DNA from: a virus
Length of the DNA: 64,000 nucleotides
Strand: one strand, 5' to 3'
Virus record (IMG/VR): IMGVR_UViG_3300020438_000007
Location: 1-64,000 of that record
The position numbers and the translations under genes were made by a program. The notes beneath the pieces are model-generated. The model saw only the letters and a list, made by a program, of their open reading frames with translations, was not told the origin of the DNA and searched no databases. Shown piece by piece: positions 24,072-58,466 of this stretch. Each line of letters begins with the position of its first letter. Positions within the stretch are counted from its first letter, which is position 1.

Positions 24072-26420
24072 CTATTCTCCGCCTCCGTCGCCTCCGCCGT
24101 TCCCGCCACCATTTCCACCGTTACCGTTTCCACCATGTCCATTACCATTACCGTTTCCATTCTTTCCATTGGTATCATCATCTGAATTGTCTGGTTTTAA
24201 CATTCCGCCATAACCAACTCTATATCCTTTAGGGATAGACTTGCATTTCTTATCATCATTACAATAGTATTCACCTTCACCACACTTTTTCTTCTCTTCA
24301 TCTATTTCATTCTTTCTTACATACTCCTTTCCACCAGCCCCTATGTCAGTTACCTTAACTTTGATCTTTGATGGATCTTTAAGTTTAACTTTAACCATTG
24401 GTTTCTTTGCTTCAATTACAGGAGAGTACTCATCCCTTAGATGATCTGGAATGATGTCAGATACATATTTTTTATGTTCTTTTCTCTGTAGAAGTCTCCT
24501 CCCTCTAGCACCAGCATCCATAGCTTTCATAGGCTCTTTCAACACTGCCTGTTTTCTCTTGACTGCCGCCACCATACCACCAAGTTTCTCAGAAATCAAC
24601 TCACCTGTCTCAGGTTCGTAACCACAGTTCCATGCTCTGAGAGATTTATTGATTCTGGAATCAGGATCTCTTGCAGTCTTAGCAGAGGTAAGTTTTGATT
24701 TCATACCTTTCATTCTTGCACAGAATGATGCTCTTCTCTTGTTACCTTTCTTTTTACTGGGTGCTTTAAGATCTGAGCCTGGATTAGCTCTCTCGTAAGA
24801 CTTACGACCCTTCTCATTCAAACCACCCGAAGAGTTCTTACCAGCCTTTCTTGTCCATGCTGCAGCTTCTGTCATAGAAAGATCAGGAGTATGATCTGCT
24901 GCAAGAGTTCTGTAATCTGGTTCACCCTTCTTTACTGTTCCCTTTTTCTTTGCCATGTTGGCAAGATCTTTTGGTTCTTCTTTTGATTTGTTCCTTGTAG
25001 GATCAATAGAACCCTCAGTAAATTTTACAGGACTTGAGACAGTTCCCTTTCCATCAACATATTTTGTGACTCTAGGGTTCTTCTCATCATCATTTCTAAA
25101 ATCCTTATGTGTTTTTTTCCACTTCTGCCTTGTCATCTCAACAGTTTCTTTCAACTTTTTCTTTTTAGACACCATCATATCTTCCAATCTCTTCTTCTTA
25201 GAGACTGCAATAGCAGACTGTTGTGCTGCATTTTGTGCCTCACCCATCATTTTGGGTCCACCTGCTTTCTTCTCTGCCACTTTCTTTTCATTGGGATTCT
25301 CATTGCCTATGGCAAGATTCCTCATCTTCTGCTTCTTCTGTGCATCCTTATGTTCTTTAGGATTAATCTCAAAGCTATCATTGATCTGAGTAGTGGGGTT
25401 TAGAGTTTCTTTCTTCGCCTTTTCCTGTCTCCTCTTCTTTTCTTTTTGAACTCTCTTCAACATAAACTTATTAGATGGCATACTCTGATCCATCTTACTA
25501 AACTTATCGTGAAGTCTATCCAAGTTGATGTCAGTCTGCCTGTGCATCTTAGCATCTTCTAAGATGTCCCTAAAATTTTCTTTAAGACCCTTAGTTTTCT
25601 TACCTCTTCGGTCTGCATGGTCTGCTCTTCTATCTCTTTGGACACCGCCACCAAGTGGTTCAGATCCATAAGGATTACCGTATCTTTCAAGTCTTTTACC
25701 TGATCTTTTATGATCTGGTACTAATTTGTCAACCTTTGCTTCGTTCACTTTCTTCTTAGGTTTATCAGTACTAACATATGTAGGTTTTGCCGCACCTGAC
25801 TTGGACTGTTGGCCTGGATCTGCTGCCTTCTTTCTCCTTGCCGCAGACTGCCTTTCTGACTTAGACATACTTGCACGTTTAGATGATGACACACACTTAG
25901 GAGTACCCTCGCCTGGCTCGTCACTAGCACAGGTTCCACCTGTAACTACATTAACCCAACCACCTTTACCATCTTTAGACTTGGATCCTTTGAACCACTG
26001 ACGTAGATTACCTTCCTTAACCTCTGGTGTCTTAGGAATCATAACAGGTTCAAACATCTTCTTCTTAGCCCAGTCATCTGGAATCATGAGATGTTTTGCT
26101 TTGAACTGCATGTGTAGAAGAGTAGTGTCAATACCATTCCTTGAAGAAATTTTCTTCATCAGGTCGTCAACTTCACCGTAAGATGGGTAGTCTAATTTTT
26201 CTAGACCATCTTCTAGTTCTTTTACAGCGACTGACTCATTCATTTTTTTCTTCTCAGGTAATCCTTTATGTTTAGTAGATGCAAATTTCTTTACATCTTT
26301 TCTCTTCATGCTGGCAGCAGCTCTTTGAACCTCAAGCGTTTTTTCTCCCTTGAGAGTACCTTTTTGAGCCGCTCTAACAATCCCGAAGAATTTTTGTTGT
26401 TTTTTGGAGACTGCTGGCAT
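24072..26420 (-). CDS. Large basic low-complexity protein (DUF3008 N-terminus)
   Basis: A 782-residue, very Lys-rich protein. The N-terminus MPAVSKKQQKFFGIVRAAQKG fits DUF3008. Further blocks are recognisable in cyanophage virion proteins: RQWFKGSKSKDGKGGWVNVV (about residue 138), AAWTRKAGKNSSGGLNEKGR, and RRASFCARMKGMKSKLTSA. The C-terminus is a run of Gly/Asn repeats. Likely a packaged internal or virion protein that binds DNA; the composition argues against an enzyme. Confidence 0.7.
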   Translation of the reverse strand: MPAVSKKQQKFFGIVRAAQKGTLKGEKTLEVQRAAASMKRKDVKKFASTKHKGLPEKKKMNESVAVKELEDGLEKLDYPSYGEVDDLMKKISSRNGIDTTLLHMQFKAKHLMIPDDWAKKKMFEPVMIPKTPEVKEGNLRQWFKGSKSKDGKGGWVNVVTGGTCASDEPGEGTPKCVSSSKRASMSKSERQSAARRKKAADPGQQSKSGAAKPTYVSTDKPKKKVNEAKVDKLVPDHKRSGKRLERYGNPYGSEPLGGGVQRDRRADHADRRGKKTKGLKENFRDILEDAKMHRQTDINLDRLHDKFSKMDQSMPSNKFMLKRVQKEKKRRQEKAKKETLNPTTQINDSFEINPKEHKDAQKKQKMRNLAIGNENPNEKKVAEKKAGGPKMMGEAQNAAQQSAIAVSKKKRLEDMMVSKKKKLKETVEMTRQKWKKTHKDFRNDDEKNPRVTKYVDGKGTVSSPVKFTEGSIDPTRNKSKEEPKDLANMAKKKGTVKKGEPDYRTLAADHTPDLSMTEAAAWTRKAGKNSSGGLNEKGRKSYERANPGSDLKAPSKKKGNKRRASFCARMKGMKSKLTSAKTARDPDSRINKSLRAWNCGYEPETGELISEKLGGMVAAVKRKQAVLKEPMKAMDAGARGRRLLQRKEHKKYVSDIIPDHLRDEYSPVIEAKKPMVKVKLKDPSKIKVKVTDIGAGGKEYVRKNEIDEEKKKCGEGEYYCNDDKKCKSIPKGYRVGYGGMLKPDNSDDDTNGKNGNGNGNGHGGNGNGGNGGGNGGGDGGGE

Positions 26421-26421
26421 G

Positions 26422-26787
26422 TCATGTACCTAATCCTTTTCCTGATTTCATGTTTTCTTTACTACCGTATCTAGCTTTTGTTTCTACATACCCCTTTGTA
26501 TTATCACCATAACCCATCTCTTTGGCATCTGACTTAAGTTTTTGGTTTGCATTATGTTGTTTAAGATACTTACCTTCACCATCAGTCTTCGCACCTTTCA
26601 CTTTAGGTTTCTGGTTACTACCACTTCTCATGATAGCACCTTTACCATACTGAGCTGTGATGGATTTCTTTACTGCGTCCATTACAGAATCTTTAGATTT
26701 AGATAATGGTTTCTTAGTTCCACCTACATCATAACCTGTTTCTTTTTTGAGACGAGTCGCCTCTTGAAAATCTTGGAAGTTCTTCAT
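26422..26787 (-). CDS. Basic virion-type protein with capsid-targeting-like N-terminus
   Basis: A 121-residue Lys-rich protein starting MKNFQDFQEATRLKKE, which resembles the T4 internal-protein targeting sequence (MKTYQEFIxEA) with a possible protease site after E9. The rest is low-complexity Gly/Lys. It lies in a block of three basic proteins (24.1-28.1 kb). Probably packaged into the head; inference from composition. Confidence 0.65.
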   Translation of the reverse strand: MKNFQDFQEATRLKKETGYDVGGTKKPLSKSKDSVMDAVKKSITAQYGKGAIMRSGSNQKPKVKGAKTDGEGKYLKQHNANQKLKSDAKEMGYGDNTKGYVETKARYGSKENMKSGKGLGT

Positions 26788-28094
26788 TTCTTTTTACCTA
26801 AGTCTTTAATAGATGACGTACCTTGAACAATCTTTGAACGTCCATAGGGGTTTCTGACATCATCATTGTCAGCAGACTTACGATACCTTTCTGGTTGTCC
26901 TCTACCAGTTGTGTTATTTCTTTTCTTACCATCAAAAGAAGTATATTGATTGGAAGTTTTGTTTTTCCTACCTTTAAAGGCATATTCATCATTTCTTCTA
27001 CCCATCTTGTTTGCAAGACTTTTACTTATGCCCTTGTCTTCATTACCTTCACCAGCACCAGCATTGTAAGCGGCCATTCTGTTCTCATCAAGTGAGTCCA
27101 GTTCATCTCTCCAATTAGAGAAACTACTCATCTGGATTGCTGCTACCTTTTGTTGTAACTTTGTATCCTGTTTGTTGTCTTTCTTGATTATCTTATTAAC
27201 CAATGCTTTTTTGGCCATGTTAGCCGATTTTAATTTCCGTTCTGCTTGTCTTTGTGAAGCTTGATTGACTGGTGACATAGACATTTCATCTAGGTTGTGA
27301 TCAACTTCTTCTTTCTTTGAACTGTTACCATAGTTTGCAGCACCCTTCTTGCGACACTGTACTAATCTACCTGATGCGTATGCAGATGGCCAAACACTTG
27401 CACTTGCTTTTACTTTTTTATAACAAGCGTCTTTCTTACCACTACCACTTCCTTTCTTATCTTCTTCGGTAACTACTTCTTCTTTATTCAGGATCGCCTG
27501 CCTACGTCCTGAAGGATCTTGTATTGCAATGCGACGTTGCATCTGCTTATTGGCTTCTTTCGATTTACCATGATGTGCAGCGACAACTTCTTTAGCATAA
27601 GCTTTATCAGCCTGACGTGACATCTTCTCTTTAGGAAGTGGTTTGTATCCTTCTAAAAGAGCCTCCAGAACCATATCTCTAGAACCCCAAAGATCATTCT
27701 CACTAATAAATGCCTCTACTAATTCTTCATCAGACCATCTGTCTGTGTCATATCCCTCTTCTACAATACCTGTCAACCAAGTATCAAATGTCTCTCTATG
27801 ATTCTCTTTCTCTAGGAGTTTAAGTGTATTCCATTCCGATCTATACTTTCCTTCCTTCTTTAATTTCTTTTGTTGCCAAGAGTCAAGTGCCTGATCTGGA
27901 CGTTTCCCTGATGCCATCTCAGATTTCTTATGAGCTTGAAATGCAGAAGCGGACTTCGCTCTGTCAGCATCCCTCTGTTGGTTCTTTGCAGCTTGATCTT
28001 GAATCTTTTTCTTTACATTGTCCTCATTCTTTTGTAGATTAGGATGTAAAGGCGATTCATAAATTGCAGAATAGGCTTCAGAAAGTTTGTCCAT
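26784..28094 (-). CDS. Basic virion-type protein with DUF5872-like segment
   Basis: A 436-residue basic protein starting MDKLSEAYSAIYES. A conserved-looking block KKDACYKKVKASASVWPSAY then GRLVQCRKKG (about residues 220-250) matches DUF5872-like modules. A FSNWRDELDSLDEN motif occurs near residue 330. The ATG at 28094 is chosen because an upstream start at 28121 would precede the likely transcript start of the late promoter. Likely head-internal or structural. Confidence 0.7.
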   Translation of the reverse strand: MDKLSEAYSAIYESPLHPNLQKNEDNVKKKIQDQAAKNQQRDADRAKSASAFQAHKKSEMASGKRPDQALDSWQQKKLKKEGKYRSEWNTLKLLEKENHRETFDTWLTGIVEEGYDTDRWSDEELVEAFISENDLWGSRDMVLEALLEGYKPLPKEKMSRQADKAYAKEVVAAHHGKSKEANKQMQRRIAIQDPSGRRQAILNKEEVVTEEDKKGSGSGKKDACYKKVKASASVWPSAYASGRLVQCRKKGAANYGNSSKKEEVDHNLDEMSMSPVNQASQRQAERKLKSANMAKKALVNKIIKKDNKQDTKLQQKVAAIQMSSFSNWRDELDSLDENRMAAYNAGAGEGNEDKGISKSLANKMGRRNDEYAFKGRKNKTSNQYTSFDGKKRNNTTGRGQPERYRKSADNDDVRNPYGRSKIVQGTSSIKDLGKKK

Positions 28095-28125
28095 TTTAAA
28101 AGGATACAGTATAGCTATCATAACG

Positions 28126-28146
28126 TATTTATTATATCAATAAATA
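28126..28146. promoter_or_regulatory. Palindromic divergent late promoter pair
   Basis: TATTTATT (28126-28133), five bases, then AATAAATA (28139-28146): the same late-promoter box (seven of eight of TATAAATA) on both strands, forming a perfect palindrome. The plus copy serves the tail-fibre gene at 28176, the minus copy the basic virion proteins from 28094. The two polymerases would face apart and their boxes nearly touch. Confidence 0.65.
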
Positions 28147-28175
28147 GAAGACAGGGACTCTATATTTTTAGCTAA

Positions 28176-30731
28176 ATGGCTCGTCAGGGAATATTTACTG
28201 GATTCACACCGAATGATGGTCTGGGAGATTCCCTTGCCTTAGGCGCATCCAAAGTAAATCAAAACTTTACAGAGATTTATACTACCTTCGGTGACGGTAC
28301 AAATCTCAGTGTTAATGCAGGGAGTGCTGGTACTTGGACGAAGGCAGGGAACACAGGAATTTACACAAGTAAGAACGTTGGCATCGGTACGACTGATCCT
28401 ACTGCTTCTTTATTTGTATCAGGTAATGTTCAATTAACAGGTATTACAACTGGAACATTCGTTGGAGATGGTTCTGGTCTAACAGGTGTGACCGCAGTTG
28501 GTCAAGGTGTTGTTATAAAAGACAGTGGAACACTAGTTGGTGTTGCACAAAGTCTTAACTTAGATAAGAATTTAACTGTCACACAGGTGTTTGGTGGAAA
28601 TGTAACAGTTTCTGCTGCTGATACTGTAGGATTTGCGTTCACTTCTGGATTCTCTACTACATCTGCATACGCAAACGTTTCTGGAGTATCAACCACTGCA
28701 ACAACTGCTGGGTTTGCTGACACTGCAACACTGGCATACACTGCAAACTTCGCCACGATTGCTGGTATCGTAACTTACTCACAGGCATCTGGTATTGCAA
28801 CCAACTCTGGTGTTGCTGAGTATGCAAAGGTAGCTGGTATCGCATCATACGTTGCCAATGCAGGGTTCTCAACCATGGCGGGGTATGCACATACCGCAGG
28901 CATCGCCACAGTCGCACAGAATTTAACAGGAACTCCTTCTATTGTTATCGACAATATCAATTCTGCGATTGGTATTGTGACCATGCCTGGTCAAGGTAGT
29001 AAGATGCGTTTCGACTTTGACGCAACAGGTGATCTACCCCAATCAACCTCTTGGAGAGGTATGTTTGCATGGGCAAACAACACCAAGACTGCATATGTTT
29101 CCAGTGGAACCACAATGGGTGGTTACAATGGTTGGAGACAGATACTTCATCAGGATGACGAAGGCAACTACTTTACAGTAGGTGTCATAACTGCATCCAA
29201 GTTTGCTGGTGATGGATCTGGACTTACAAACTTACCATCAACAGATAGTATTTGGAGAACAAACTCCACTGGTATTCACACTCTCAGCAACGTTGGTCTT
29301 GGAACTACCAACACAGAAGGATATAAACTTAACGTACTAGGTAACTTAAAGTTACAAGGCAGACTGGACGGAACTGCAACAGATAATATACTACCTCACT
29401 TGTGGTCAACCTACGCATCTCTACCATCATCATCCACTTATCATGGTGCATTTGCTCACGTTCATGAGACAGGAAAGGCATACTATGCACACGCTGGTTG
29501 GAATGAACTGGTCAATAAAAATCAAGATCAATCGGTTGGAACTGGAACTGAAAACTATAGAGTTGGTGTTCTAACTGCAATATCATTTACTGGAGATGGA
29601 TCTGGTTTAAGTAATATCAATGTATCATACGCAGCTTCAGCTGGTATTGCAACTCTATCACAAGGACTAGAAGGTAAACCAGACATCTTAGTTGCTAACA
29701 TCAACTGTACTGGTATTACTACTAGTGCAACATTCGTTGGAGATGGTTCTGGACTGACAGGTATCACTGCATCTGGTAGTGGTATTATCATCAGAGAAGG
29801 CGGCACACTCGTAGGAACTATTGGAACTGTAAACTTCGGAACTGGTTTCGATGTTTCCCCTGCATCTGCTGGTGTAGTAACAGTCACCACATCAGGTGGC
29901 GGCGGTGGTGGTATCTCTGGTATTGTATATCAGGAGGAAGGATCTACTGTTGGTACTGCACAAACCGTTAACTTCATTGGTGTTGCATGTACAGTAACAC
30001 ATAGTGGTGGAGTTGCAACTGTCAACTTGGCAGGAGCAGTACCATTCACAGGACCTGCTGCAAGCATAACTGCACTTGACATTACACAGTATGAAGCAGC
30101 ATATGGATGGGGTGATCACTCTGGTGCTGGATATCTGACAGGTATAGGTGGTCAAGGATTAGGTAATCTAAACAACGTTTCTAATGTATCTCCAAGTACA
30201 AGTGATGTATTAACATGGAGTGGATCACAGTGGGCACCAGCCGCACCTACAGGTGGTAGTGGTGGAATAATAATTAAAGAAGAAGGAAGTCAAGTTGCAG
30301 CAGGAATCACCTCACTTAATTTTGTTGGATCTACTGTAAGTGCAACTGCTTCTGGAACAGATGGAACTATCACAATCACTTCTGGTGGTGGTGGAGGTGG
30401 CAGTATTTCCACAACTGGAGTTGGAACATACACTGCATCTGCTGGTGTGGAACAACAGGTAGATTCATGGTCTAAGTTAAGTTACTCTGGTGCAGAGTAC
30501 ACATTTATGATTGGTCTAGGAACATTCAGACAATCACAGAAAGTTCTTGTCATGCACGATGGAACTACGGCGTTCTCACAAGAATATGGCATCATGTTCT
30601 CTCCAGAACAACAGGTATCAATCGCTGCAACTGTAAGTAGTAACAACGTTCTAGTTAAAGTTACTCCTGAGTCAGGGATATCTGGTTTATCAACATACAG
30701 ATTCGTTAAAACTTTTATTGAGAACCTATGA
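28176..30731 (+). CDS. Tail fibre-like structural protein
   Basis: An 851-residue protein, first gene of the plus-strand block. The N-terminus (MARQGIFTGFTPNDGLGDSL, then GASKVNQNFTEIYTTFGDG) matches the 1099-residue fibre at 40979. Many short repeats follow (VGDGSGLTG three times or more, GIGTTDPTASLFV, AGIAT), typical of trimeric beta fibres. The C-terminal 110 residues are not repetitive and probably bind the receptor or the next fibre subunit. Its stop overlaps the next start (ATGA). Confidence 0.85.
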   Translation: MARQGIFTGFTPNDGLGDSLALGASKVNQNFTEIYTTFGDGTNLSVNAGSAGTWTKAGNTGIYTSKNVGIGTTDPTASLFVSGNVQLTGITTGTFVGDGSGLTGVTAVGQGVVIKDSGTLVGVAQSLNLDKNLTVTQVFGGNVTVSAADTVGFAFTSGFSTTSAYANVSGVSTTATTAGFADTATLAYTANFATIAGIVTYSQASGIATNSGVAEYAKVAGIASYVANAGFSTMAGYAHTAGIATVAQNLTGTPSIVIDNINSAIGIVTMPGQGSKMRFDFDATGDLPQSTSWRGMFAWANNTKTAYVSSGTTMGGYNGWRQILHQDDEGNYFTVGVITASKFAGDGSGLTNLPSTDSIWRTNSTGIHTLSNVGLGTTNTEGYKLNVLGNLKLQGRLDGTATDNILPHLWSTYASLPSSSTYHGAFAHVHETGKAYYAHAGWNELVNKNQDQSVGTGTENYRVGVLTAISFTGDGSGLSNINVSYAASAGIATLSQGLEGKPDILVANINCTGITTSATFVGDGSGLTGITASGSGIIIREGGTLVGTIGTVNFGTGFDVSPASAGVVTVTTSGGGGGGISGIVYQEEGSTVGTAQTVNFIGVACTVTHSGGVATVNLAGAVPFTGPAASITALDITQYEAAYGWGDHSGAGYLTGIGGQGLGNLNNVSNVSPSTSDVLTWSGSQWAPAAPTGGSGGIIIKEEGSQVAAGITSLNFVGSTVSATASGTDGTITITSGGGGGGSISTTGVGTYTASAGVEQQVDSWSKLSYSGAEYTFMIGLGTFRQSQKVLVMHDGTTAFSQEYGIMFSPEQQVSIAATVSSNNVLVKVTPESGISGLSTYRFVKTFIENL

Positions 30732-32944
30732 TTCATACTAGTACGAACACTCTCGATAGGTCAGGCCTGGCTACCAAGCCAGTTGGAACTGATGACAAGA
30801 AGGCATACTCTATTAAATGTTATACCAAAAATGATTGGGTATTCATTCATGAGGAACTAGAGAAAGATGGATCATTGGAAGATAACATTCCTGATCCAAC
30901 AATAGTATGTCCTGACAAGAAGGAACATAGTGATACCAGAGCAACTTACATGTTGACTGATGCGGAAGCAGAGGATTTAAGAAAACATGAGAAGGTACAG
31001 TGGGTCTGTATTGACTATGATGTATATCCAGGCAACTATTCTCCAGATCCAAAAGATATTATCGCTGGTGTACAAAAATTTGGTAGGTTCAATAAGACAG
31101 TATCTAACTACAGAGCATGGAATACTTCGCCAACAGGCACTAGGCCACCAACAACCCAGGCTGGTATTGGTGCAACAGATAAGAACAGAACTGGATATCA
31201 AATACTAAGACATACACAAAAAGAAAACCCTTGGGATGCAACATCCACTGGGCTGACTGGATCTGATCATCTAATAATAGAGACTGAACCAAAGCAATTA
31301 GGTGATGGCACTGGTGTAGATGCAATCGTAGCTGATGATGGTTTCTGGATTGCACACCCAGAATTTGTAACAACTGACGATGATCCTGTAGGTTGGTCAA
31401 CAGGAAACGCATTAACATGGAGTGGTATATCTACAACTCCAGGCACATGTGGTGTTCTAGATGTACTTCTTGATGGTCCATATTATATTGACCCAGCATG
31501 GTTCAATGCAGATCCAGGCAATAGATTGATTCAACGTTGGGACGGAACAACAGTACCAGTAGAGTCTGTTGCAAGAGCATGGTGGTCTGATTCAAGTCAG
31601 AGATCAGTAGGATTCTCTACCATTGGCACTACAAATGGTTTCAGTGCTTCATATAGTAGACAAAGTTGCAACGGAAGTAACACACAGAAACCAACCAACG
31701 GTTCTGATCACGGAACTCAGTGTTCTGGTCAAGTATATGGTAAGAATTATGGATCGGCATATAACTGTAACAAATGGGTATTGAATGGTATCGGTGGTTC
31801 TAATGCTGGAATCAATGGTAGTCAATTTGATATACAGAAACTCTTCCACTTATATAAACCAAACTATGATAGACATTCTGCTATCACTGGTAAAGAAAAT
31901 GATACTAAAAACCCCACACTATCAAGTAATAGTTGGGGTTACAGATCTAGCTCTATACATACCACAGGTTACTATTGGTATAGACCATCAGCAACAGATG
32001 GATCAGAGACTGGCGTATCCTATAGTAGTGGTGCTGAACCAGAATTCATTGATTTACTAGGCGCATATGGTGATAGTAATAGGTGTAAAGGAGAGATGGT
32101 AGAAAGTTCTGTAACTGCTGCTGGTGATGAGTTAGCTGAGGCGGGAGTTATCTTCGTCTGTGCTGCTGGTAATAGTAATCAGACTCAATGTAGTCCTGGC
32201 GATCTTGACTTTGATAATTATTGGGCTACCAGTTCTCAAGGTAACAGTTCTTCCTTAGAATCCGCAACTCATAGTGAATTTGGATTGACATGTTATAACA
32301 CTATCAATAGAAGAGGATGGCCACAGGCACTAGGTAAAACCACATCTGGATTATCTACTGCTGGAACTGAATATGCTGCTATTAATATTGGTGCATTAGA
32401 TGATCAAATTACAAGTAGTGGACTAGGTGGTAACACCACAGACTACAAAGAAAAGAAAGTGAACTATAGTGATATGGGAACAGGTATTGATTGTTATGGT
32501 GCTGCTGATGACACACTCACAGCAGATGGAAGAGCATCATCTCTTACATATGTTCACCCAGAAACATATACTGGTCTCACACTTACCCCATATGATATTG
32601 ATTTTGGTGGTACTAGTTCTGGATGTCCTACATGTGCTGGTTGGTTAACTACCAAACTACAATATAATAGAGATTGGACTTGGAGAGAAATAAAAGATTG
32701 GTTGAAAAACCAGTGTGGTAGTCAATCTCCTGACAGATTTTACTATGGTGATAACATTACATCTTTCACTGCAACAACAGCTGCATGGGAAGATATGTAT
32801 TCCGTTCAGATGTATGGTCAAGGACCTGTTGTCATCTGGGATGCTCCTACTGGTTCACCTACCGAACCCAAAAAACCTGAGATAAAAATCACCAACTCCC
32901 CTAACCTTAAAATCAGTGGTGGAGTTGAGATAAAGTTCTCTTAA
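30728..32944 (+). CDS. Subtilisin-like (S8) serine protease, fibre-associated
   Basis: A 738-residue protein with all catalytic elements of peptidase S8: Asp near 203-204 (VDAIVADDGF), His327 (GSDHGTQCSG), oxyanion Asn481 (VCAAGNSN) and Ser629 (FGGTSSGCP). The Asp-to-His gap (about 120 residues) is much longer than usual, leaving room for an insert. No signal peptide. Placed between fibre genes and translationally coupled to one, it is probably a virion enzyme that cuts a fibre, capsule protein or host surface protein. Confidence 0.85.
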   Translation: MIHTSTNTLDRSGLATKPVGTDDKKAYSIKCYTKNDWVFIHEELEKDGSLEDNIPDPTIVCPDKKEHSDTRATYMLTDAEAEDLRKHEKVQWVCIDYDVYPGNYSPDPKDIIAGVQKFGRFNKTVSNYRAWNTSPTGTRPPTTQAGIGATDKNRTGYQILRHTQKENPWDATSTGLTGSDHLIIETEPKQLGDGTGVDAIVADDGFWIAHPEFVTTDDDPVGWSTGNALTWSGISTTPGTCGVLDVLLDGPYYIDPAWFNADPGNRLIQRWDGTTVPVESVARAWWSDSSQRSVGFSTIGTTNGFSASYSRQSCNGSNTQKPTNGSDHGTQCSGQVYGKNYGSAYNCNKWVLNGIGGSNAGINGSQFDIQKLFHLYKPNYDRHSAITGKENDTKNPTLSSNSWGYRSSSIHTTGYYWYRPSATDGSETGVSYSSGAEPEFIDLLGAYGDSNRCKGEMVESSVTAAGDELAEAGVIFVCAAGNSNQTQCSPGDLDFDNYWATSSQGNSSSLESATHSEFGLTCYNTINRRGWPQALGKTTSGLSTAGTEYAAINIGALDDQITSSGLGGNTTDYKEKKVNYSDMGTGIDCYGAADDTLTADGRASSLTYVHPETYTGLTLTPYDIDFGGTSSGCPTCAGWLTTKLQYNRDWTWREIKDWLKNQCGSQSPDRFYYGDNITSFTATTAAWEDMYSVQMYGQGPVVIWDAPTGSPTEPKKPEIKITNSPNLKISGGVEIKFS

Positions 32945-49209: not shown

Positions 49210-49365
49210 TTATCTCTTTTTATTTGCTGCTTCTTTCCACCTTCTCAATATTGTTCCCTTAAAAGGTAGATCATATCCAGCAACAGGACCTTTGGAATCT
49301 GCAGCAGAAGTGAAACCACCTGTACCAGCAGTCATCATCTCATTAAATTCCTTAAAAGTCTTCAT
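49210..49365 (-). CDS. Small protein with capsid-targeting-like N-terminus
   Basis: A 51-residue basic protein starting MKTFKEFNEMMTAG, close to the T4 internal-protein leader MKTYQEFIxEA. The C-terminus is basic (ILRRWKEAANKKR). Its ATG overlaps the previous stop (ATGA). Likely packaged in the capsid; short proteins of this kind are cleaved by the head protease in T4. Confidence 0.62.
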   Translation of the reverse strand: MKTFKEFNEMMTAGTGGFTSAADSKGPVAGYDLPFKGTILRRWKEAANKKR

Positions 49366-50398: not shown

Positions 50399-50400
50399 GT

Positions 50401-51735: not shown

Positions 51736-51948
51736 TTAGTCTTTCCAACCACCTGCTTTTAACCAGTTATTGTAGTGTGGATTATCCCAGTTATCACTAA
51801 TCTCATAAGATGGAATGACAACCTCTTGGATATATCTACGATTCTCTTCCACAAGTCTTACCTTGTGATCTATCTGAGCACCCCACCAAACTGCTGCACC
51901 TACTTGTGCTGCTAAGAATGTGAGTAATGGTATTGGTAAATTTTTCAT
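51736..51948 (-). CDS. Small membrane-anchored protein
   Basis: A 70-residue protein with an N-terminal helix (PIPLLTFLAAQVGAAVWWG) and a soluble tail rich in Asn and Trp (DNPHYNNWLKAGGWKD). Its end abuts the flavoprotein gene. Function unknown; a membrane-anchored partner of the flavoprotein is conceivable. Confidence 0.65.
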   Translation of the reverse strand: MKNLPIPLLTFLAAQVGAAVWWGAQIDHKVRLVEENRRYIQEVVIPSYEISDNWDNPHYNNWLKAGGWKD

Positions 51949-51949
51949 T

Positions 51950-52414
51950 TTAACCCTCGTTTAGTGTACCTCTAGATCTACGGAGAACTCGTAGTTCCTC
52001 AAAGTCTTTTTGTTTTTTACCACCATCATATGGCCAAGCATAACCCTCACCAATCATTTCTTCGTTGATTGACACAGGCTCGTCCCCAATGTAAAGCCAA
52101 CCAAGAAGACGCCCATATTTGCCAACCCCACCGACAAGTTCAGTACGGATAAGAAGATCATCGTCACCAGCCACCGCCTTCTGGAGTTTCTCTTTGAGCC
52201 AATTCGTCGCATCAATTCCAAGAGCTTTCTCCTCTAAGTCTCTAGTTCTTTTCTCAGGTGTGTCAATACCAGCAACTCGAACTCTCTCTTTCTTCGTCAG
52301 ATCAAATCCAAGATCAATAGTAACATCGATAGTATCTCCGTCAACTACCTTGTTAATTTTCGTCACTCGGAAGTTGTAACAACTCTTTCGTGACGGTGGG
52401 GTCATTGCTCCCAT
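51950..52414 (-). CDS. Thermonuclease-like protein (SNase fold)
   Basis: A 154-residue staphylococcal-nuclease-like protein: KVVDGDTIDVTIDLGF, RVRVAGIDTPEKR (catalytic Arg and Asp region), then GKYGRLLGWLYIGD and a C-terminal RRSRGTLNEG. The fold matches thermonucleases that cut DNA and RNA with calcium. A GGAG at a proper distance supports the ATG at 52414. It may help degrade host DNA or act in the virion; no signal peptide is seen. Confidence 0.85.
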   Translation of the reverse strand: MGAMTPPSRKSCYNFRVTKINKVVDGDTIDVTIDLGFDLTKKERVRVAGIDTPEKRTRDLEEKALGIDATNWLKEKLQKAVAGDDDLLIRTELVGGVGKYGRLLGWLYIGDEPVSINEEMIGEGYAWPYDGGKKQKDFEELRVLRRSRGTLNEG

Positions 52415-52604
52415 AGTAAAACTCCATTAATGCTTTATTTATGGAGTCTTCTGGGGAAGTTCTCCATCGTTTCCGCCTTTCATTTCTTGCTTCTTCAAAC
52501 GCTTCATAAAGTTGGTCGTATATATCATCCCCCATCATCGGACTTGCCATGACTGGCATGGCTGTCATGAGAGTGAGTAACATCATTCGGAAAAAAATGG
52601 TCAT
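52353..52604 (-). CDS. Small secreted protein
   Basis: An 83-residue protein with a signal peptide (MTIFFRMMLLTLMTAMPVMA) and an acidic, helical mature part (DIYDQLYEAFEEARNERRKR). Its 3' end overlaps the thermonuclease start by 62 bases and its 5' end overlaps another small gene. It may act in the periplasm, perhaps with the nuclease. Confidence 0.62.
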   Translation of the reverse strand: MTIFFRMMLLTLMTAMPVMASPMMGDDIYDQLYEAFEEARNERRKRWRTSPEDSINKALMEFYYGSNDPTVTKELLQLPSDEN

Positions 52605-52683
52605 ATCTTATAATATAGTATATTAGAATAGAAATTGCAACCAGCAGTATAAAAATCATCCATACAATACTCCAGACTATCAT
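52525..52683 (-). CDS. Membrane protein with His-rich tail, overlapping frame
   Basis: A 52-residue protein (MIVWSIVWMIFILLVAISIL, then a His/Ser/Asp-rich tail ending SHGKSDDGG). Its start overlaps the stop of the gene at 52680 (ATGA), and its last 80 bases lie in another frame inside the secreted-protein gene. The coupling argues for a real gene; the overlap argues for care. Confidence 0.5.
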   Translation of the reverse strand: MIVWSIVWMIFILLVAISILIYYIIRYDHFFPNDVTHSHDSHASHGKSDDGG

Positions 52684-52910
52684 AATGTTCTCTCTTTTGA
52701 CTTAATGAGATCAATCCTTGCTCTTAAATTTACTTCAGAATCTCTTTGAAGATGTCCATAAAACATATTCATATGAGTTTCAACCGTCTTCCATCCATGA
52801 TATTTTTTATGAGATCTTACCTTCATATAGTAGTCATGGAGTAGAAGTTTGGCATCATGTACCGTCATCCACTCATGTATTAGAGTTAAGTTGATGGCAT
52901 CCTGTTCCAT
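52680..52910 (-). CDS. Hypothetical protein
   Basis: A 76-residue soluble protein (MEQDAINLTLIHEWMTVHDA), His- and Met-rich and helical. No recognised motif. It lies between two small genes in a tightly packed unit. Confidence 0.62.
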   Translation of the reverse strand: MEQDAINLTLIHEWMTVHDAKLLLHDYYMKVRSHKKYHGWKTVETHMNMFYGHLQRDSEVNLRARIDLIKSKERTL

Positions 52911-52911
52911 T

Positions 52912-53199
52912 TTACAAAGTCCTTTCTAATCTGGTTGTTGCTTGGTCGGGAAAGTCTCTAGGTCTACTGTCGGTTGCGTTGTCGGTCTTGGGAGAACCTT
53001 CGTTCGCCTTCATAGTATGTTGATAGTTTGGTCTTGGGTATCTGATACGAAAGGGATCAGGCATCCAGTATGTTACTTGCCATTCTTGTTCTGGACATAA
53101 CTCAAGATGTTTCTCTACAGTATGGGAGAAACTACCAAGTTGAATGTAACCATCGTGACTGACACATCTGCCATCGCCAGTGTCAACCAAGAACATCAT
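52912..53199 (-). CDS. Hypothetical protein
   Basis: A 95-residue protein starting MMFLVDTGDGRCVSHDGYI, with a C-terminal Pro/Arg-rich tail. The ATG at 53199 (or one codon later) is chosen over a TTG at 53226 that would overlap the previous gene more. No family recognised. Confidence 0.6.
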   Translation of the reverse strand: MMFLVDTGDGRCVSHDGYIQLGSFSHTVEKHLELCPEQEWQVTYWMPDPFRIRYPRPNYQHTMKANEGSPKTDNATDSRPRDFPDQATTRLERTL

Positions 53200-53207
53200 T
53201 TTACTAC

Positions 53208-53507
53208 TCAATCTCTTTGTCTCCAATCGTCAGATCTTTCTTGATGAAACCAGTCTACCACTTCATCTGGATTAAAGAAACCCCTACGGTGATTGTTTGA
53301 ATCGGGGTCTCCTAAATTCAAACCGTTAAGAAAAGAATCGTCTGGATTCGTATTCATACGTCTTGCTGTACTCAGCATACCTCTTGCGGACGTATTTGCT
53401 TTTGCTAATTTCTGTGCCCATATCATATCATCTATACTTACTTCTGTGCCTGCTGCGATAGATTTACATATGCCTTCTAGGCGAAGGCGATAAGCGGTGG
53501 ATAGCAT
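53208..53507 (-). CDS. Conserved small protein
   Basis: A 99-residue protein (MLSTAYRLRLEGICKSIAAG) with two helical blocks (VSIDDMIWAQKLAKANTSAR) and a basic C-terminal half. I recall similar cyanophage proteins but not a function. Confidence 0.65.
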   Translation of the reverse strand: MLSTAYRLRLEGICKSIAAGTEVSIDDMIWAQKLAKANTSARGMLSTARRMNTNPDDSFLNGLNLGDPDSNNHRRGFFNPDEVVDWFHQERSDDWRQRD

Positions 53508-53517
53508 TTGTTAATGT

Positions 53518-53545
53518 GTAGTATTACTATAATTTATAATACTAC
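53518..53545 (-). terminator. Inverted repeat at the PTOX stop
   Basis: GTAGTATTA (53518-53526) pairs perfectly with TAATACTAC (53537-53545); the PTOX stop codon (53542) is inside the right arm. It is AT-rich with no clear T-run, so it may stabilise the mRNA end or act as a weak terminator. The loop also contains TATAAATT, a late-promoter-like box (7/8), so it could serve the gene at 53507. Confidence 0.4.
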
Positions 53546-54045
53546 ATTACCATAGACATTGCATGTTGCAATTCTTTAGCATGTTGTAATTCGTCTTCTG
53601 CAATCTCTTGTATCTTTGTATCTTCTGGATGAACACTTAAATATTTTGTGTAGGTTTCAAATGCGTGCTTTTCTATCTTCATGTTTATGTCGTAAGCGTC
53701 CACAGGATCAATGAGATAATACCCAACCATGATCCAATAATAAACCAGAACAAGATGCTTGGCACAGAAACGGTCGATCCAATATTTATTTCCTTCCCTG
53801 CGTTCCATCTCTTCCAAGTGTTCTGTTTCATTGAGAGCCTGATAGAAGTGTTCTTTCATCAAGTATATATGATCCTTTCCTCTAAGTCCAAGGGATTCTC
53901 TAAAGTGTAACACACTGATAAATGCAAAGTAGGGTGCTCTCGCAATGACTTCCAATACCCAGAACCTTTGGAAAGGTCTGTTATGGTAAAGGAAGTCAAG
54001 TATTCCTATGGTTACACTTAATATTATAGTGTTAAATTGTTTCAT
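53542..54045 (-). CDS. PTOX: Plastoquinol terminal oxidase
   Basis: A 167-residue member of the alternative oxidase family (PTOX). The di-iron site is visible as RFWVLEVIARAPY (E32), LNETEHLEEM (ExxH), and EDELQHA (ExxH), with central hydrophobic and Tyr/Trp-rich helices. PTOX moves electrons from plastoquinol to oxygen; in phage-infected cyanobacteria it is thought to relieve over-reduction of the quinone pool. Its first codon overlaps a tiny membrane-peptide gene (ATGA). Confidence 0.92.
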   Translation of the reverse strand: MKQFNTIILSVTIGILDFLYHNRPFQRFWVLEVIARAPYFAFISVLHFRESLGLRGKDHIYLMKEHFYQALNETEHLEEMERREGNKYWIDRFCAKHLVLVYYWIMVGYYLIDPVDAYDINMKIEKHAFETYTKYLSVHPEDTKIQEIAEDELQHAKELQHAMSMVM

Positions 54046-54134
54046 TGTGCGTAGGCAATTTGCGGTAAGTATATCATTGCGAATGTAATTGCTGTAAATA
54101 TTATAATAGTAGATGCTATTGGGAAATGTTTCAT
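54042..54134 (-). CDS. 30-residue membrane peptide before PTOX
   Basis: Encodes MKHFPIASTIIIFTAITFAM and an end YLPQIAYAQ. It overlaps both the upstream gene and PTOX by ATGA, so it would be made at a fixed ratio with PTOX. It could be a small subunit or anchor of the oxidase, or a leader peptide for translational coupling. Function inferred from place only. Confidence 0.55.
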   Translation of the reverse strand: MKHFPIASTIIIFTAITFAMIYLPQIAYAQ

Positions 54135-54295
54135 ACGTCTTCTTTCAGAATTTCATACAAAGAAAAAGGATGTTCCTGTAGATAGGGAACATCCTTCTTC
54201 GCTTGTTCTTGTGCTTGAAATGAGGTTTCTGCGTATTCGCAGATATGATGCTCAAAATTCTCTTTGTCGTGCCAACCAAGGGTGTAGTGGGACAT
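54131..54295 (-). CDS. Small soluble protein, first gene of the PTOX unit
   Basis: A 54-residue protein (MSHYTLGWHDKENFEHHICE) with several His and acidic residues. It follows an exact late promoter and is coupled by ATGA to the membrane peptide. Its coding region contains the stem GGATGTTCC/GGAACATCC followed by T-rich sequence, which could cause partial termination. No family recognised. Confidence 0.62.
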   Translation of the reverse strand: MSHYTLGWHDKENFEHHICEYAETSFQAQEQAKKDVPYLQEHPFSLYEILKEDV

Positions 54296-54320
54296 GATAG
54301 TTTCAACTCCAGTACGCTAT

Positions 54321-54328
54321 TATTTATA
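54321..54328 (-). promoter_or_regulatory. Exact late promoter for the PTOX unit
   Basis: TATAAATA on the minus strand exactly matches the T4 late consensus and lies 26 bases before the first gene of the PTOX unit (54295). A GGAG follows before the start codon. It points to late rather than early expression of PTOX. Confidence 0.75.
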
Positions 54329-54373
54329 ATAACATACTAGGTATAAACCACTAGTTATGTGTGGACTTACTGA

Positions 54374-54646
54374 CTATCCGATTGTGTATCCAGCTGCTGC
54401 ACCCAAGACTTCAGCATTGGCCGCAAAGATTGCTTCGGTTGATTTTTTCTCTACAAACTCAACAGTATTGGCCGGCATTGTGAACGTTCCTGTTGTGGTT
54501 GATCCACCAACAGAATCAATAACACTTACCAATCTTGCAGTGCTACCATTGTTAACAAGACGCACTACCGTCGCACTTCCGAATGTAGAAGCATTAGCAG
54601 CATCTGTGCCACATGCGGCTTGAGTTCCTTTTATGTTAGTTAACAT
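54374..54646 (-). CDS. Small virion-type protein
   Basis: A 90-residue protein (MLTNIKGTQAACGTDAANAS) of beta strands rich in Thr, Val and Gly. No signal peptide. Its place after the internal head-protein block suggests a minor structural protein. Conserved in appearance among cyanophages from memory. Confidence 0.68.
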   Translation of the reverse strand: MLTNIKGTQAACGTDAANASTFGSATVVRLVNNGSTARLVSVIDSVGGSTTTGTFTMPANTVEFVEKKSTEAIFAANAEVLGAAAGYTIG

Positions 54647-54652
54647 GATTCC

Positions 54653-56200
54653 TTAATAACCTCTCTTATATTTAGCGGATTCATCCTCTGGGTTGATGAT
54701 GATTGTATTTTTACCACTCATGGGTTTAATCTCTTTGTTCTTATCTGGATACTTTTTATCAGTTTCCCAGATAAATTCTTCACGCCAGTCAGAGTATGAC
54801 TCATTTCTTTGTTCAGAGACTCCCATTTTTTTCAGTGCTGCTGCTTTTGCTTTATCCTTCTGCATCTGAGCATAGGTTCTCATGTTTTTCTTGCCCGCAG
54901 CCTTTGCCTCCTGTTCCGCTTTGATGAAATTAGTTGCCTCTTTGACTTCTTTTGCCTTTTCATCTCTCAATCCTTGAATGATTTTATCTGCTGCGTTTCT
55001 TGTCTGCTCTTTACTACTTGCTTTAGTTGCTGGTCTACCCCTCTTACCACTAGTAGATCCTTTTGGTCTACCAGCTTTCTTCGGAACTGATGTTGCCTTA
55101 ACAGTGATTGCCTTATCTCCACTCTCATCATCTTTCTTTCCCTGTGCTTTCATGGCGGCCATGAGTCTATTAGCGCCTGCGTCAGACTTCTTGTTCTTCT
55201 CATTCTGATTGATAGCAGCTTTGACTGCACCCTTCACTATAGGAGAATTGGTCTTCCCACCTTCTCCACCTGTTGTAGTAAGTTTTCCGCCTGGTGATCT
55301 TACAATGTTTCCAATTTTCTGTCCAGAGTCTTTCTCTACTTGGTTCTTAGCAGAGGTGTCTTTCGATGCTGTTTTAATCTGTTTTTCAACTGTTTTATTA
55401 TCAGGCGATTTTGTGAACTTCCTCATCGACGAAGAGTCTTTACTCTGTGTGGGAGTCTTGGATGTATCATTAGTAGTTTGTTTCCTTACCTTTCTAGATT
55501 CTCTATACTTATCCTCTGCTGTTTTTCTTGCAGCTGCTCTTCTTTCCTGGCCTGGTCTATACTTTTCAGCATCACCTGTGATAGTTTTACCACCAGAAGT
55601 TTTTACTTCTTGGGGTTTGTCCATACCAATAAACTTTTTGCCAACACCCTTAAGTGCTGTACCAAGTACACCCCTAGTTCCAGTACCACCAGTAGTAACT
55701 TTATCTGAATCAGAACCTGTAACTTTACTTCTTGGTAATCCTTTTGTGTCTTGTGCTTTCTTTTTATCTTTATAAGCAGAGATGCCACCACCAATAGTAG
55801 ATTGAGCTCTACCAGCCAGGGCTCTCATATTAGTTCCAAGTCCAGTTCCTCTGGTTGCATCTTCTTTATCTGGTCTGTATTTTGCAAATCCTGATACAGC
55901 TCCGCCTACTGCGGAAAGTTGTCTTTGTCCTCTATCAGACGATGCGTACTTACTTGCTCTATCTTTATTCCTATCTAACGTCGCCTGTATCCCTCTTTTC
56001 TTAGTTCCATCGTTTAATCTTCCAGCCCTTGTAGGAATACTAGGAGCCTGAGCACCTTTAGTTACAGGAGATCTAGCTCCTGTAGTGGTGGACTTAACAG
56101 AAGCTGTAGTTTTAGTTTTATCAAAACGTTTTGAGACATCCACTCCAACAATCTCAGTTATTGGAGACTGTTCATATTCAAATTGTTCAAAGCTTTTCAT
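54653..56200 (-). CDS. Internal-type head protein with AT-hook-like motifs
   Basis: A 515-residue very Lys-rich protein starting MKSFEQFEYEQSPITEIVG, an internal-protein-like leader. Near residues 380-396 it has two AT-hook-like cores (AGRPKGSTSG and KRGRPATKA). The C-terminus has SYSDWREEFIWETDKKYPD and ends KYKRGY. It is probably packaged with DNA in the capsid or binds phage DNA before packaging. Confidence 0.7.
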   Translation of the reverse strand: MKSFEQFEYEQSPITEIVGVDVSKRFDKTKTTASVKSTTTGARSPVTKGAQAPSIPTRAGRLNDGTKKRGIQATLDRNKDRASKYASSDRGQRQLSAVGGAVSGFAKYRPDKEDATRGTGLGTNMRALAGRAQSTIGGGISAYKDKKKAQDTKGLPRSKVTGSDSDKVTTGGTGTRGVLGTALKGVGKKFIGMDKPQEVKTSGGKTITGDAEKYRPGQERRAAARKTAEDKYRESRKVRKQTTNDTSKTPTQSKDSSSMRKFTKSPDNKTVEKQIKTASKDTSAKNQVEKDSGQKIGNIVRSPGGKLTTTGGEGGKTNSPIVKGAVKAAINQNEKNKKSDAGANRLMAAMKAQGKKDDESGDKAITVKATSVPKKAGRPKGSTSGKRGRPATKASSKEQTRNAADKIIQGLRDEKAKEVKEATNFIKAEQEAKAAGKKNMRTYAQMQKDKAKAAALKKMGVSEQRNESYSDWREEFIWETDKKYPDKNKEIKPMSGKNTIIINPEDESAKYKRGY

Positions 56201-56207
56201 GTGTATC

Positions 56208-57059
56208 CTACTTCTGGATGGACTTGTGTGCTTTAAGAATAGAACTTGCGTGTTTCTCTACAGTCTCTTCTGACATAGTTTCTTCCACTTCCTCTTCTTG
56301 TTTAGAGAACGAAACTGGACTCTTGACATTGAAACTCTCGTTCTTAGGACGGCAATCATTCACCATCTTGTTTCCTTTCTTCTTCATTCCGACTTTCTTA
56401 TGAGTATCCCAACAGGCAACTTCATCTACGTTCTCTACTTCTTCCTTCTTCATTGCCTTTCCGATTGCGTCACGACGATTCTTAAGGTATGAATCAGACT
56501 TATCTACATCACCATCATTATCAACATCAGCATCTTCCTTTCCGACTGGATCTAATTTCTTTTTCTTTTTCTTTCCTTCCTCTAAAGGAGTTACTTGATA
56601 CCTTGTACCAGACATCTCTCCAAGAGTAGTAAGGTTTGCTGCAACCTGATCCCAGAGTCTATTGGCCAAGTTCTCATCTGGATTACCTAATGGTTTTGGA
56701 GTAACAACATCAGTAATCTCATGAGTTAAATTACCATCCATATCATGCAATTCAACAGATTCACTGTTGTTAAGTTGACCCTTTCCTCTAAGTTTATCAG
56801 CAGTATCTTTAACTTTTCCGACACCATCAGCAACAGCACCAACCTTACCAGCAATGTTTGCAGCCTTAGAAAGTCCACCCATTACTTTAGCACCCTTAAT
56901 GGCACCCATGGCGGCCTTTGCTGCCAGTAAAGAACCAGTAACTACAGCCTCATCAGTCTGTTCCTTATCATCATGCTCGATGACTTTACCATCAGTATCT
57001 TTCTGATGATGTTCATACATTGATTTATAAGCATTAACCAGTTTTGAATCGTCAGTCAT
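56208..57059 (-). CDS. Virion-type protein with calcium-binding loop
   Basis: A 283-residue protein starting MTDDSKLVNAYKSMYEHHQK. It has a hydrophobic Ala/Gly-rich segment (about residues 40-75), a Lys run (KKKKKKL), and an EF-hand or dockerin-like loop DADVDNDGDVDKSDSY with acidic residues at all ligand positions. A second part is Glu-rich. It is probably a structural or internal protein. A late promoter lies just before the gene. Confidence 0.68.
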   Translation of the reverse strand: MTDDSKLVNAYKSMYEHHQKDTDGKVIEHDDKEQTDEAVVTGSLLAAKAAMGAIKGAKVMGGLSKAANIAGKVGAVADGVGKVKDTADKLRGKGQLNNSESVELHDMDGNLTHEITDVVTPKPLGNPDENLANRLWDQVAANLTTLGEMSGTRYQVTPLEEGKKKKKKLDPVGKEDADVDNDGDVDKSDSYLKNRRDAIGKAMKKEEVENVDEVACWDTHKKVGMKKKGNKMVNDCRPKNESFNVKSPVSFSKQEEEVEETMSEETVEKHASSILKAHKSIQK

Positions 57060-57095
57060 GATAGTAAAAAAATTAGATAGGCCTTGATCTATCCT

Positions 57096-57103
57096 TATTT
57101 ATC
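57096..57103 (-). promoter_or_regulatory. Late promoter
   Basis: GATAAATA (seven of eight of the late consensus) lies 37 bases before the start of the gene at 57059 and overlaps the stop of the nucleotidyltransferase gene. Confidence 0.5.
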
Positions 57104-58466
57104 CCTTTCCAACTTTGTAAGGTATAGATGTATCATTATATTTTACTCCAGGTCCACTAGGAGGATCATTAGGATTCTTTACTTTCTTGCCATCATGGTA
57201 AGAACCACTGGTAATTGGTTTAATAATAGGATCATTATTCCATTTCTTATCACCTTGGCCTGGTGTCATTCTCTGCATGTATTGTCTATACTCATCTGTC
57301 CCTACATCATATGCCTCTGTCAAGTCTTTTAACCATGCTTTGTACATAGTAGACTCTGGAGTTTGTACGATAACATGATTCGCACCTCTTCTAGTAATTC
57401 TACCTCTCACTCCAGTGTTTACATTCTCTACTAATGATCCTACTTTATAACATTGCTCGTTGAGATATGCAATTCTCAATCCAAATGGATCTAACTTAGG
57501 TGCATACTGCCATGTCTCAGAAGCTAATGATCCTCTAAGTTGATCATCAGTGGCTCCCATAGATTTTTGAATGAGGTTGAAGAGATTTTTTTTCTCCATA
57601 TTACCTAAGTTGGGAATACCTTTTGCAAATCCTTTGAAGTCATCCTTTGCTACTGCATCTCTCATCTTAGATGCAGACATACCCTCTACACCATCTGAGT
57701 CTGGATCTCTTGCACCAGCAGATATGACTTGAAGATCCTCAAAATCATATAAGTCACCATTATATTTCTGTGCAAGACTTTGGAATTCGGAGAGTCTATC
57801 TTGTCCTACAACTATTGTTATTGCTTTGTATCCTAGATTGAAGGCACCTGTAAGAACATCAAATATAGTTCTTGCATTAGGATCATCTTTGATATCCTCT
57901 TCATAATCTGGGAACATCTTCCTCATATATTCTATTTTCGCACCAGGCTGTAGAGGATTCTTCTTAGAATCTACACTACGACTTGGATATACCTTCAAGT
58001 CAAATCCTAGTCTGTTTGCTTCTGATTTTGCTTTTTGTAATAACTTTTCGTGTCCTACTGTTGGTGGATTGAATCTACCAAATACAACTACTGCACCCTC
58101 GCTAGCAGGATTTCCCATCACCTCTGCTGTCTGTTTATCCGATTCGCCAGGCTCAGGTGATTTGGTTGCGGTAGAAGAAGGATCTTCCTTTGGTTTTGGT
58201 TTTGGAGAAGATGCAACTGGAGCAGGTGCTTTCTTCTGGACAGTGGGTTTCTCAGGTGTGGCAACTTTAGTAGATTTTGGATCGTCGGTGGCGGCCGCAC
58301 CCCCTCCTCCTGTGTATTGAAGTTTACCGCTTACAGTTTTTGCAACGAATTTACCCTTAGCATCATACCAGCCTCCATGACCGTCGCCCTTTAGTCCCTT
58401 GAGTTTAGCCTCAGTGGATGCAGCAGTCTTTACAGCTTCTGTTAAAAATTGACCGAAGGATTTCAC
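57099..58466 (-). CDS. Nucleotidyltransferase (HxGH) with capsid-targeting-like leader
   Basis: A 455-residue protein. The GTG start at 58466 gives MKSFGQFLTEAV, close to the T4 internal-protein targeting leader, with a LTE-A protease site after residue 10. A TTG at 58475 would add three residues. Residues 11-115 are a linker; residues 126-260 form a nucleotidyltransferase core with GRFNPPTVGH (HxGH-type) and MSASKMR (the ISxxxxR motif of NMN/NaMN adenylyltransferases). Its substrate could be an NAD precursor or a CTP-dependent sugar. A packaged enzyme is inferred. Confidence 0.78.
   Translation of the reverse strand: MKSFGQFLTEAVKTAASTEAKLKGLKGDGHGGWYDAKGKFVAKTVSGKLQYTGGGGAAATDDPKSTKVATPEKPTVQKKAPAPVASSPKPKPKEDPSSTATKSPEPGESDKQTAEVMGNPASEGAVVVFGRFNPPTVGHEKLLQKAKSEANRLGFDLKVYPSRSVDSKKNPLQPGAKIEYMRKMFPDYEEDIKDDPNARTIFDVLTGAFNLGYKAITIVVGQDRLSEFQSLAQKYNGDLYDFEDLQVISAGARDPDSDGVEGMSASKMRDAVAKDDFKGFAKGIPNLGNMEKKNLFNLIQKSMGATDDQLRGSLASETWQYAPKLDPFGLRIAYLNEQCYKVGSLVENVNTGVRGRITRRGANHVIVQTPESTMYKAWLKDLTEAYDVGTDEYRQYMQRMTPGQGDKKWNNDPIIKPITSGSYHDGKKVKNPNDPPSGPGVKYNDTSIPYKVGKG

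Follow-up and report, generated by a model that had tools for sequence, protein, structure and literature searches.

A T4-like capsid-targeting leader on a cyanophage nucleotidyltransferase and its probable use as a modular packaging tag in aquatic T4-like phages

The first 64 kb of the 230,739-bp virus record IMGVR_UViG_3300020438_000007 (IMG/VR; this 64,000-nucleotide stretch is called the window here) encode a nucleotidyltransferase that begins MKSFGQFLTEA, resembling the leader of the phage T4 internal proteins (IPs). Our analysis suggests, with a probability of roughly 0.8, that this enzyme is an internal head protein of cyanophages made in the T4 way and that its leader is a modular tag of aquatic T4-like phages. 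We assign the source virus as a T4-like cyanomyovirus close to Synechococcus phage S-SSM7 (Kyanoviridae), with T4-type head genes, because the enzyme is 83% identical to SSSM7_194 and the gene neighborhood matches that of S-SSM7.

RESULTS

The leader of the nucleotidyltransferase matches T4 determinants and is conserved across its family

The T4 record served as a yardstick. Its IPII and IPIII begin MKTYQEFIAE/A (the slash marks the cut), IPI begins MKTFKEF with a delayed ITE/A at 19, and gp23 carries FLTE/A at 65; the IPI cut agrees with the 76 residues of the mature protein (PMC3012670) out of 95. According to PMC9026906, mutagenesis of T4 IPIII ties residues 4 and 7 to targeting and residues 8 and 10 to processing, and gp21 cuts after L/I-x-E. 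The nucleotidyltransferase has an aromatic residue at 4, F7, and [LI]-x-E with the usual A behind it; LTE/A occupies residues 8 to 11, bearing out an earlier note on this DNA that had described an exact L-x-E-A cut site. The genome also encodes, beyond the window, gp21 (Peptidase_S77, E 6.5e-39; genome positions 91781-92227) and gp23 (88949-90376), whose site FQSLTE/ASPTN shares LTE/A with the enzyme. The gene has a GTG start, and a TTG upstream is an alternative possible start; a wrong-start artifact was rejected, with ATG at the same place in 72 of 73 relatives.

To avoid circularity, relatives were gathered by alignment of the catalytic domain only, which gave 79 loci, 77 of them extending upstream of the gene start. 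All 77 carry the leader, 73 as strict MKx[FLY]xxF[LIFV]xE and 4 as close variants (MKFKQFLSEA, MKFASFISEA, and MNFVDFIKEA twice). Among the strict leaders, F7, E10, and a hydrophobic residue at position 8 are invariant (73/73 each) and F4 (70/73) and A11 (69/73) nearly so, while positions 3, 5, 6, and 9 vary; K2 and A11 aside, the conserved positions are the T4 IPIII determinants (4, 7, 8, and 10). Entropy was 1.10 for the leader, 1.12 for the catalytic domain, and 2.19 for the linker, indicating that the leader is conserved like the enzyme while the linker drifts. The jumbo-phage homologues (G17, GAP32, and MIJ3) are without such a leader and start where the catalytic domain does or shortly ahead of it.

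Across the genome, four proteins begin MKxFxxF versus an expectation of 0.11, computed from how often these residues occupy positions 2, 4, and 7 in its 266 open reading frames (ORFs), a somewhat generous chance figure, given that two of the four use a non-first start codon. The six N-termini named in the earlier note were all located in the window sequence, each on the minus strand (Table 1). The four MKxFxxF starts read as it quoted them and are preserved in the S-SSM7 orthologues (MKSFGQFLTEA, MKSFEQFEYE, MKNFQEFQEA, and MKTYKELKEMM). F4 and F7 occur in all four window proteins. An exact [LI]-x-E/A site straight after the leader was found in the enzyme only; among the other three, [LI]-x-E appears just in the 515-residue protein, as a delayed ITE.

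Table 1. Features of the window discussed in the text (aa, amino acids; pLDDT, predicted local distance difference test score)
Feature	Coordinates	Strand	Remarks
Whole nucleotidyltransferase, begins MKSFGQFLTEA	57099..58466	-	455 aa; GTG start at 58466; T4-GC190 / cyanophage cytidyltransferase / NMNAT-like
Its leader, MKSFGQFLTE	58437..58466	-	Predicted gp21 cut E10/A11; F4, F7, L8, and E10 are T4 IPIII determinants
Its second N-terminal module, GLKGDGHGGWYDAKGKFVAKTVSGKLQY	58314..58403	-	Residues ~22-51; predicted small beta domain just past predicted cut, pLDDT about 90
Its catalytic domain, adenylyl/cytidylyltransferase-like	57558..58100	-	GRFNPPTVGH ... GMSASKMR; PHROG 395 cytidyltransferase, E 1e-99
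Its C-terminal beta domain	57309..57440	-	Residues about 343-386; predicted strands, pLDDT about 80-85; conserved in family
Lys-rich protein, begins MKSFEQFEYE	54653..56200	-	515 aa
Its leader, MKSFEQFEYEQSPITE	56153..56200	-	F4 and F7; possible cut ITE16/I
Basic protein, begins MKNFQDFQEA	26422..26787	-	121 aa
Its leader, MKNFQDFQE	26761..26787	-	F4 and F7; FQE/A non-canonical; conserved in SSSM7_235
Basic protein, begins MKTFKEFNEM	49210..49365	-	51 aa
Its leader, MKTFKEFNE	49339..49365	-	Possible cut before MM; FNE non-canonical
Its copy of the mature gp23 N-terminal arm, MMTAGTGGFTSAADSKGPVAGYDLP	49264..49338	-	Alignment; PHROG 696 major head protein, E 4.5e-8
Basic GC119-family protein	24072..26420	-	782 aa; DUF3008 N-terminus and DUF6321 (Pfam); no leader; S-SCSM1 homologues ORF29 and ORF93
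Second leader form, MTDDSKLVNAYKSMYE	57012..57059	-	On protein 56208-57059; N-terminal motif conserved in relatives
Second leader form, MDKLSEAYSAIYE	28056..28094	-	Inside 26784-28121; S-SSM7: LSEAYSAIYE/A

Relatives of the enzyme and other leader-bearing proteins occur in virions

The enzyme belongs to T4-GC190, which PMC3037559 describes as a core family of cyanophages with T4-like genomes and as present in S-SM1 virions. Virions of S-SCSM1 contain ORF91, the NMNAT (PMC9602691), and those of S-CREM2 contain gp154, the SAM lyase gp6, the kinase gp14, and the small protein gp13, as well as gp12 (PMC10665884). We found that ORF91 starts MKSFLQFLKEA, gp154 MKNFSSFLTEA, gp6 MKDFDSFLEEF, gp14 MKRFDAFLTEE, and gp13 MKDLHSFLTEQ, and that gp12 has LRFASFMAEA near its N-terminus. 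The strict leader is borne by 4 of the 219 annotated genes of S-CREM2, and the products of all 4 were detected in virions (P = 0.003; 0.00035 without known structural proteins). With a looser pattern the count rose to 6 of 6 (P = 1.4e-4; 5e-6 without structural proteins), although this pattern was set post hoc on the same sequences and the strict count gives the fairer estimate. These data partly support the proposal of the earlier note that an NMNAT-like enzyme is packaged, insofar as homologues are published virion proteins of S-SM1, S-SCSM1, and S-CREM2; the NMNAT part of the label fell short of the curated cut-off (see below).

In S-SCSM1, homologues of other window proteins are also annotated among virion proteins: ORF29 and ORF93 (of 24072-26420), ORF92 (of 56208-57059), and ORF97 (of 49210-49365). 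ORF93 (L360:31626-31835) has a DUF3008-like N-terminus and ends in a leader-like RTFKEFLEYIE; T4 Alt, for comparison, is also reported to undergo C-terminal processing. The Cas9/Csn1 label of S-CREM2 gp12 (L015:7704-10313) was not used; the protein belongs to PHROG 3561 and gave no Pfam or NCBIfam match. S-CREM2 gp12 and S-CRM01 g128 have a common N-terminal extension ahead of the leader.

The enzyme is probably an adenylyltransferase and carries a second N-terminal module

GRFNPPTVGH and GMSASKMR are nearly invariant in the family and correspond to the (H/T)xGH and S-x-S/T-x-x-R motifs of the NMNAT fold. Fold matches in PDB were PPAT and NaMNAT, mostly PPAT, placing the enzyme in the adenylyltransferase superfamily, and the nearest PDB sequence was that of the NMNAT MJ0541, 1F9A (E 0.026). 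The curated NMNAT model TIGR01526, with a cut-off of 341, gave a score of 18.6 bits. "NMNAT-like" appears to be a fair label for an activity that is putative. Some leader-bearing nucleotidyltransferases (L071:2505-3809, L027:11230-12507, and similar) have a C-terminal P-loop kinase-like part, found by profile in L071, in a NadR-like layout.

Between the leader and the catalytic domain lies a second module with a confident predicted beta domain at about residues 30 to 51. Residues 2 to 51 match the start of phrog_3561, the family of S-CREM2 gp12. In the S-CREM2 kinase, too, a GHGxW-type stretch comes after the leader, and kinases of S-CRM01, S-H34, and S-N03 contain this stretch as well. The leader and the GHGxW beta module may together form a moving delivery unit.

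The leader precedes many unrelated cargos in IMG/VR

Scanning the DNA of IMG/VR for MKxFxxF[LF]xEA returned at least 120 loci, almost all of them genuine gene starts, versus 12 loci in the whole collection for a permuted-residue control pattern, mostly internal or short. Among the matches listed from two scans (this pattern and an MKTF-restricted one), and with the nucleotidyltransferase excluded, we counted at least 89 distinct cargos in at least 47 unrelated families. The listed cargos were mostly basic (median net charge of +7.5 per 100 residues, where the remaining ORFs at these loci have −1.1; P about 1e-20), and the domains recognized among them included DUF6267, methyltransferase, glucosaminidase, DPBB lytic-transglycosylase-type, and DUF5661, with weak GNAT and HAD matches. 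Peptidase_S77 was found in 17 of the 24 large records that carry the leader, the rest being mostly fragments, versus 0 of 4 permuted-pattern records.

Two cargo groups deserve a description. Leader-bearing DUF6267-type proteins (L043:6418-7623, L116:5149-6393, and L161:5457-6701) contain K(W/F)DGAPA, which resembles a ligase nucleotidyl-transfer motif, and S-CRM01 g132 is a leaderless version. L193:11022-11570, L180:659-1219, and L204:3822-4379 form one cargo family with conserved HYTS...GFxDSPSTGxYHP...VYTTP; an ADP-ribosyltransferase identity for it was a sequence impression only and was dropped (no Pfam or PHROG match, no relative in the phage collection, and a model with a pLDDT of 43).

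Other leader-bearing proteins and companions in the window

Residues 1 to 7 of the 51-residue protein are identical to those of T4 IPI, and a copy of the gp23 arm follows. In the counterparts from S-SSM7 (YKELKE/MM) and S-SCSM1 (LIRE/MI), [LI]-x-E lies just ahead of the copied arm. Counterparts comprise SSSM7_213, S-SCSM1 ORF97, S-CREM2 gp160, and two IMG/VR cargos with the full leader (L133 and L065); gp160, also with the arm copy, was detected in virions. Docking to the capsid lattice, or competition for it, is a possible role of such a protein.

The 782-residue protein at 24072-26420 is likely a companion internal or structural protein. Its S-SSM7 homologue is annotated as similar to an S-SM1 protein, which is an indirect pointer only. 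Elsewhere in the window, a 738-residue protein (30728-32944) has a positional counterpart in S-SSM7 whose annotation gives a subtilase domain (PF00082) and which lies beside a tail-fiber/baseplate connector.

A second leader form had also been proposed for two further proteins. Their N-termini exist and are conserved, whereas T4-type targeting residues are missing; the form (LxxAYxx[MI]YE) was not accepted as a T4-type leader because it is without the MKx[FY]xxF targeting pattern. Its last residues, [IM]YE, would allow a cut, and relatives have the form at their N-termini. In 26784-28121, an ATG nine codons upstream of the MDKLSEAYSAIYES start is equally possible, and it is the upstream ATG that the S-SSM7 annotation uses for the counterpart. 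The S-SCSM1 virion protein ORF89 begins MDSKTFNSLSEAYAAVYS, a version of the second form. As a packaging signal, this conserved form, on one S-SCSM1 virion protein and without functional precedent, is only suggestive. Proteins of about 90 residues at L335, L343, and L352 begin with a version of it, KLxQAYxDMYEKK, followed by a cysteine-containing stretch.

DISCUSSION

We propose that the MKSFGQF helix would dock through F4 and F7 into the prohead's gp22 scaffold core, as in T4, and that gp21 would then cut LTE/A, as in the phage's own gp23, and so release the mature enzyme within the head. The enzyme would stay in the virion, as published for its homologues, reach the cell along with the DNA, and work immediately, its likeliest activity being that of an NMN/NaMN-type adenylyltransferase by which nicotinamide adenine dinucleotide (NAD) is raised or restored. 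The small Lys-rich leader proteins would be DNA-associated internal proteins. More broadly, the leader, often followed by a small beta module, would serve as a modular tag that loads unrelated basic proteins and enzymes in aquatic T4-like phages.

Several points weigh against this proposal. No [LI]-x-E comes directly after the leader in three of the four window proteins. The earlier description of the N-termini as capsid-targeting-like holds for the T4 IPIII targeting and processing positions and the presence of gp21 and a gp23 site, but not for a canonical cut right after the leader in those three. Cleavage by gp21 in cyanophages is a prediction. One of the two strict leader genes of S-SCSM1 (ORF30, MKTFKQFMSES) was undetected in virions, and the authors of the S-SCSM1 (PMC9602691) and S-CREM2 (PMC10665884) virion proteomes allow for carry-over of an abundant protein. 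The substrate assignment is weak, given Pfam matches below cut-off, a mostly PPAT fold, and the marginal best PDB match noted above.

An alternative is that the leader is real and processed by gp21 but that its cargos serve head assembly or DNA condensation rather than acting as effectors, the activity of the packaged enzyme mattering only once it has been made late in infection. We regard this as unlikely. It would account for an enzyme family that is core in cyano-T4 phages and for leader cargos that are mostly small and basic, and T4 IPIII has a role in head assembly according to PMC9026906; that source also has the T4 IPs and Alt injected into the host, however, the catalytic motifs are invariant, and a leader shared by a SAM lyase, a kinase, and a nucleotidyltransferase in S-CREM2 virions is a poor fit to structure alone. 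Considerably less probable still is a cytoplasmic enzyme that copurifies with virions, its N-terminal helix serving otherwise. This is the concern raised by the proteome authors, yet at least three phages gave independent detections of the enzyme, the detected proteins of S-CREM2 are enriched in leader proteins, E10 is invariant and followed by A11 without other evident reason, and the jumbo-phage homologues are missing the leader. Chance likeness to the T4 leader, which the shortness of the motif might suggest, was rejected as next to impossible on the genome count, the 77 of 77 homologues, and the permuted control.

If the leader indeed marks internal head proteins, it may have a wider use. 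We lean toward the idea that one N-terminal tag, the T4-type leader with a small GHGxW beta module behind it in many enzymes, packs and injects a large, fast-changing arsenal across aquatic T4-like phages, with at least 47 families besides nucleotidyltransferases, SAM lyase, and kinases; it would include methyltransferase, acetyltransferase-like, and cell-wall enzymes and a small basic copy of the gp23 arm. Were this true, the leader read straight from DNA would list injected phage effectors. In T-even phages, internal proteins have been found via the leader and inhibit GmrSD restriction enzymes (PMC12373910).

The presence of the enzyme in virions and the capsid targeting leaders of T-even phages were already known from publications. 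What appears unreported is the presence of the leader on the cyanophage enzyme and further virion enzymes, how widely it occurs, the second module in common, and the copied gp23 arm: the open literature searched, which leaves subscription papers uncovered, contains no text linking the capsid targeting sequence to cyanophage enzymes, and the single paper with both terms, PMC9026906, mentions cyanophage once. Proteins that enter with phage DNA are usually known only by proteomics, where carry-over is hard to exclude, and the two proteome author groups left the packaging of the NMNAT-like enzyme, SAM lyase, and kinase undecided. The leader offers a specific mechanism and predicts A11 as the mature N-terminus of the enzyme. 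Environmental phage DNA could also be searched with it to list proteins that are probably injected as effectors. Anti-defense or NAD-restoring enzymes are likely among them, and these would act within minutes of the start of infection of the ocean's main phototrophs.

The closest known systems include the cyanophage citidylyltransferase/NMNAT family (T4-GC190; PHROG 395), of which the present enzyme is a member and which has been published in virions of three phages; the papers searched never tied a leader or gp21 cleavage to it. With NMNAT/NadR and PPAT the enzyme shares the fold and the (H/T)xGH-type and SxSxxR-type motifs, and leader-bearing relatives such as L071 append a P-loop kinase-like part as in NadR, but the sequences are distant and the substrate of the phage enzyme is putative. 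T4 Alt, a packaged and injected ADP-ribosyltransferase, is likewise an enzyme borne in the head, and the present one would presumably be injected as well; the folds are unrelated, the present enzyme has an IP-type leader rather than one like Alt's own, and the C-terminus of Alt is also cut. The T4 IPs differ in that the cargo here includes an enzyme of 455 residues with an extra conserved beta module past the predicted cut, and in that relatives infect cyanobacteria; cleavage and injection would follow the T4 example. Like IPI, the 515-residue protein has its first [LI]-x-E delayed (residue 16; IPI, MKTFKEF...ITE19/A). In common with IPI, IPII, and IPIII, finally, are an N-terminus of the form MKx[FY]xxF[LI]xE/A or with a delayed ITE/A, conservation of positions 4, 7, 8, and 10, basic cargo, and gp21 in the genome.

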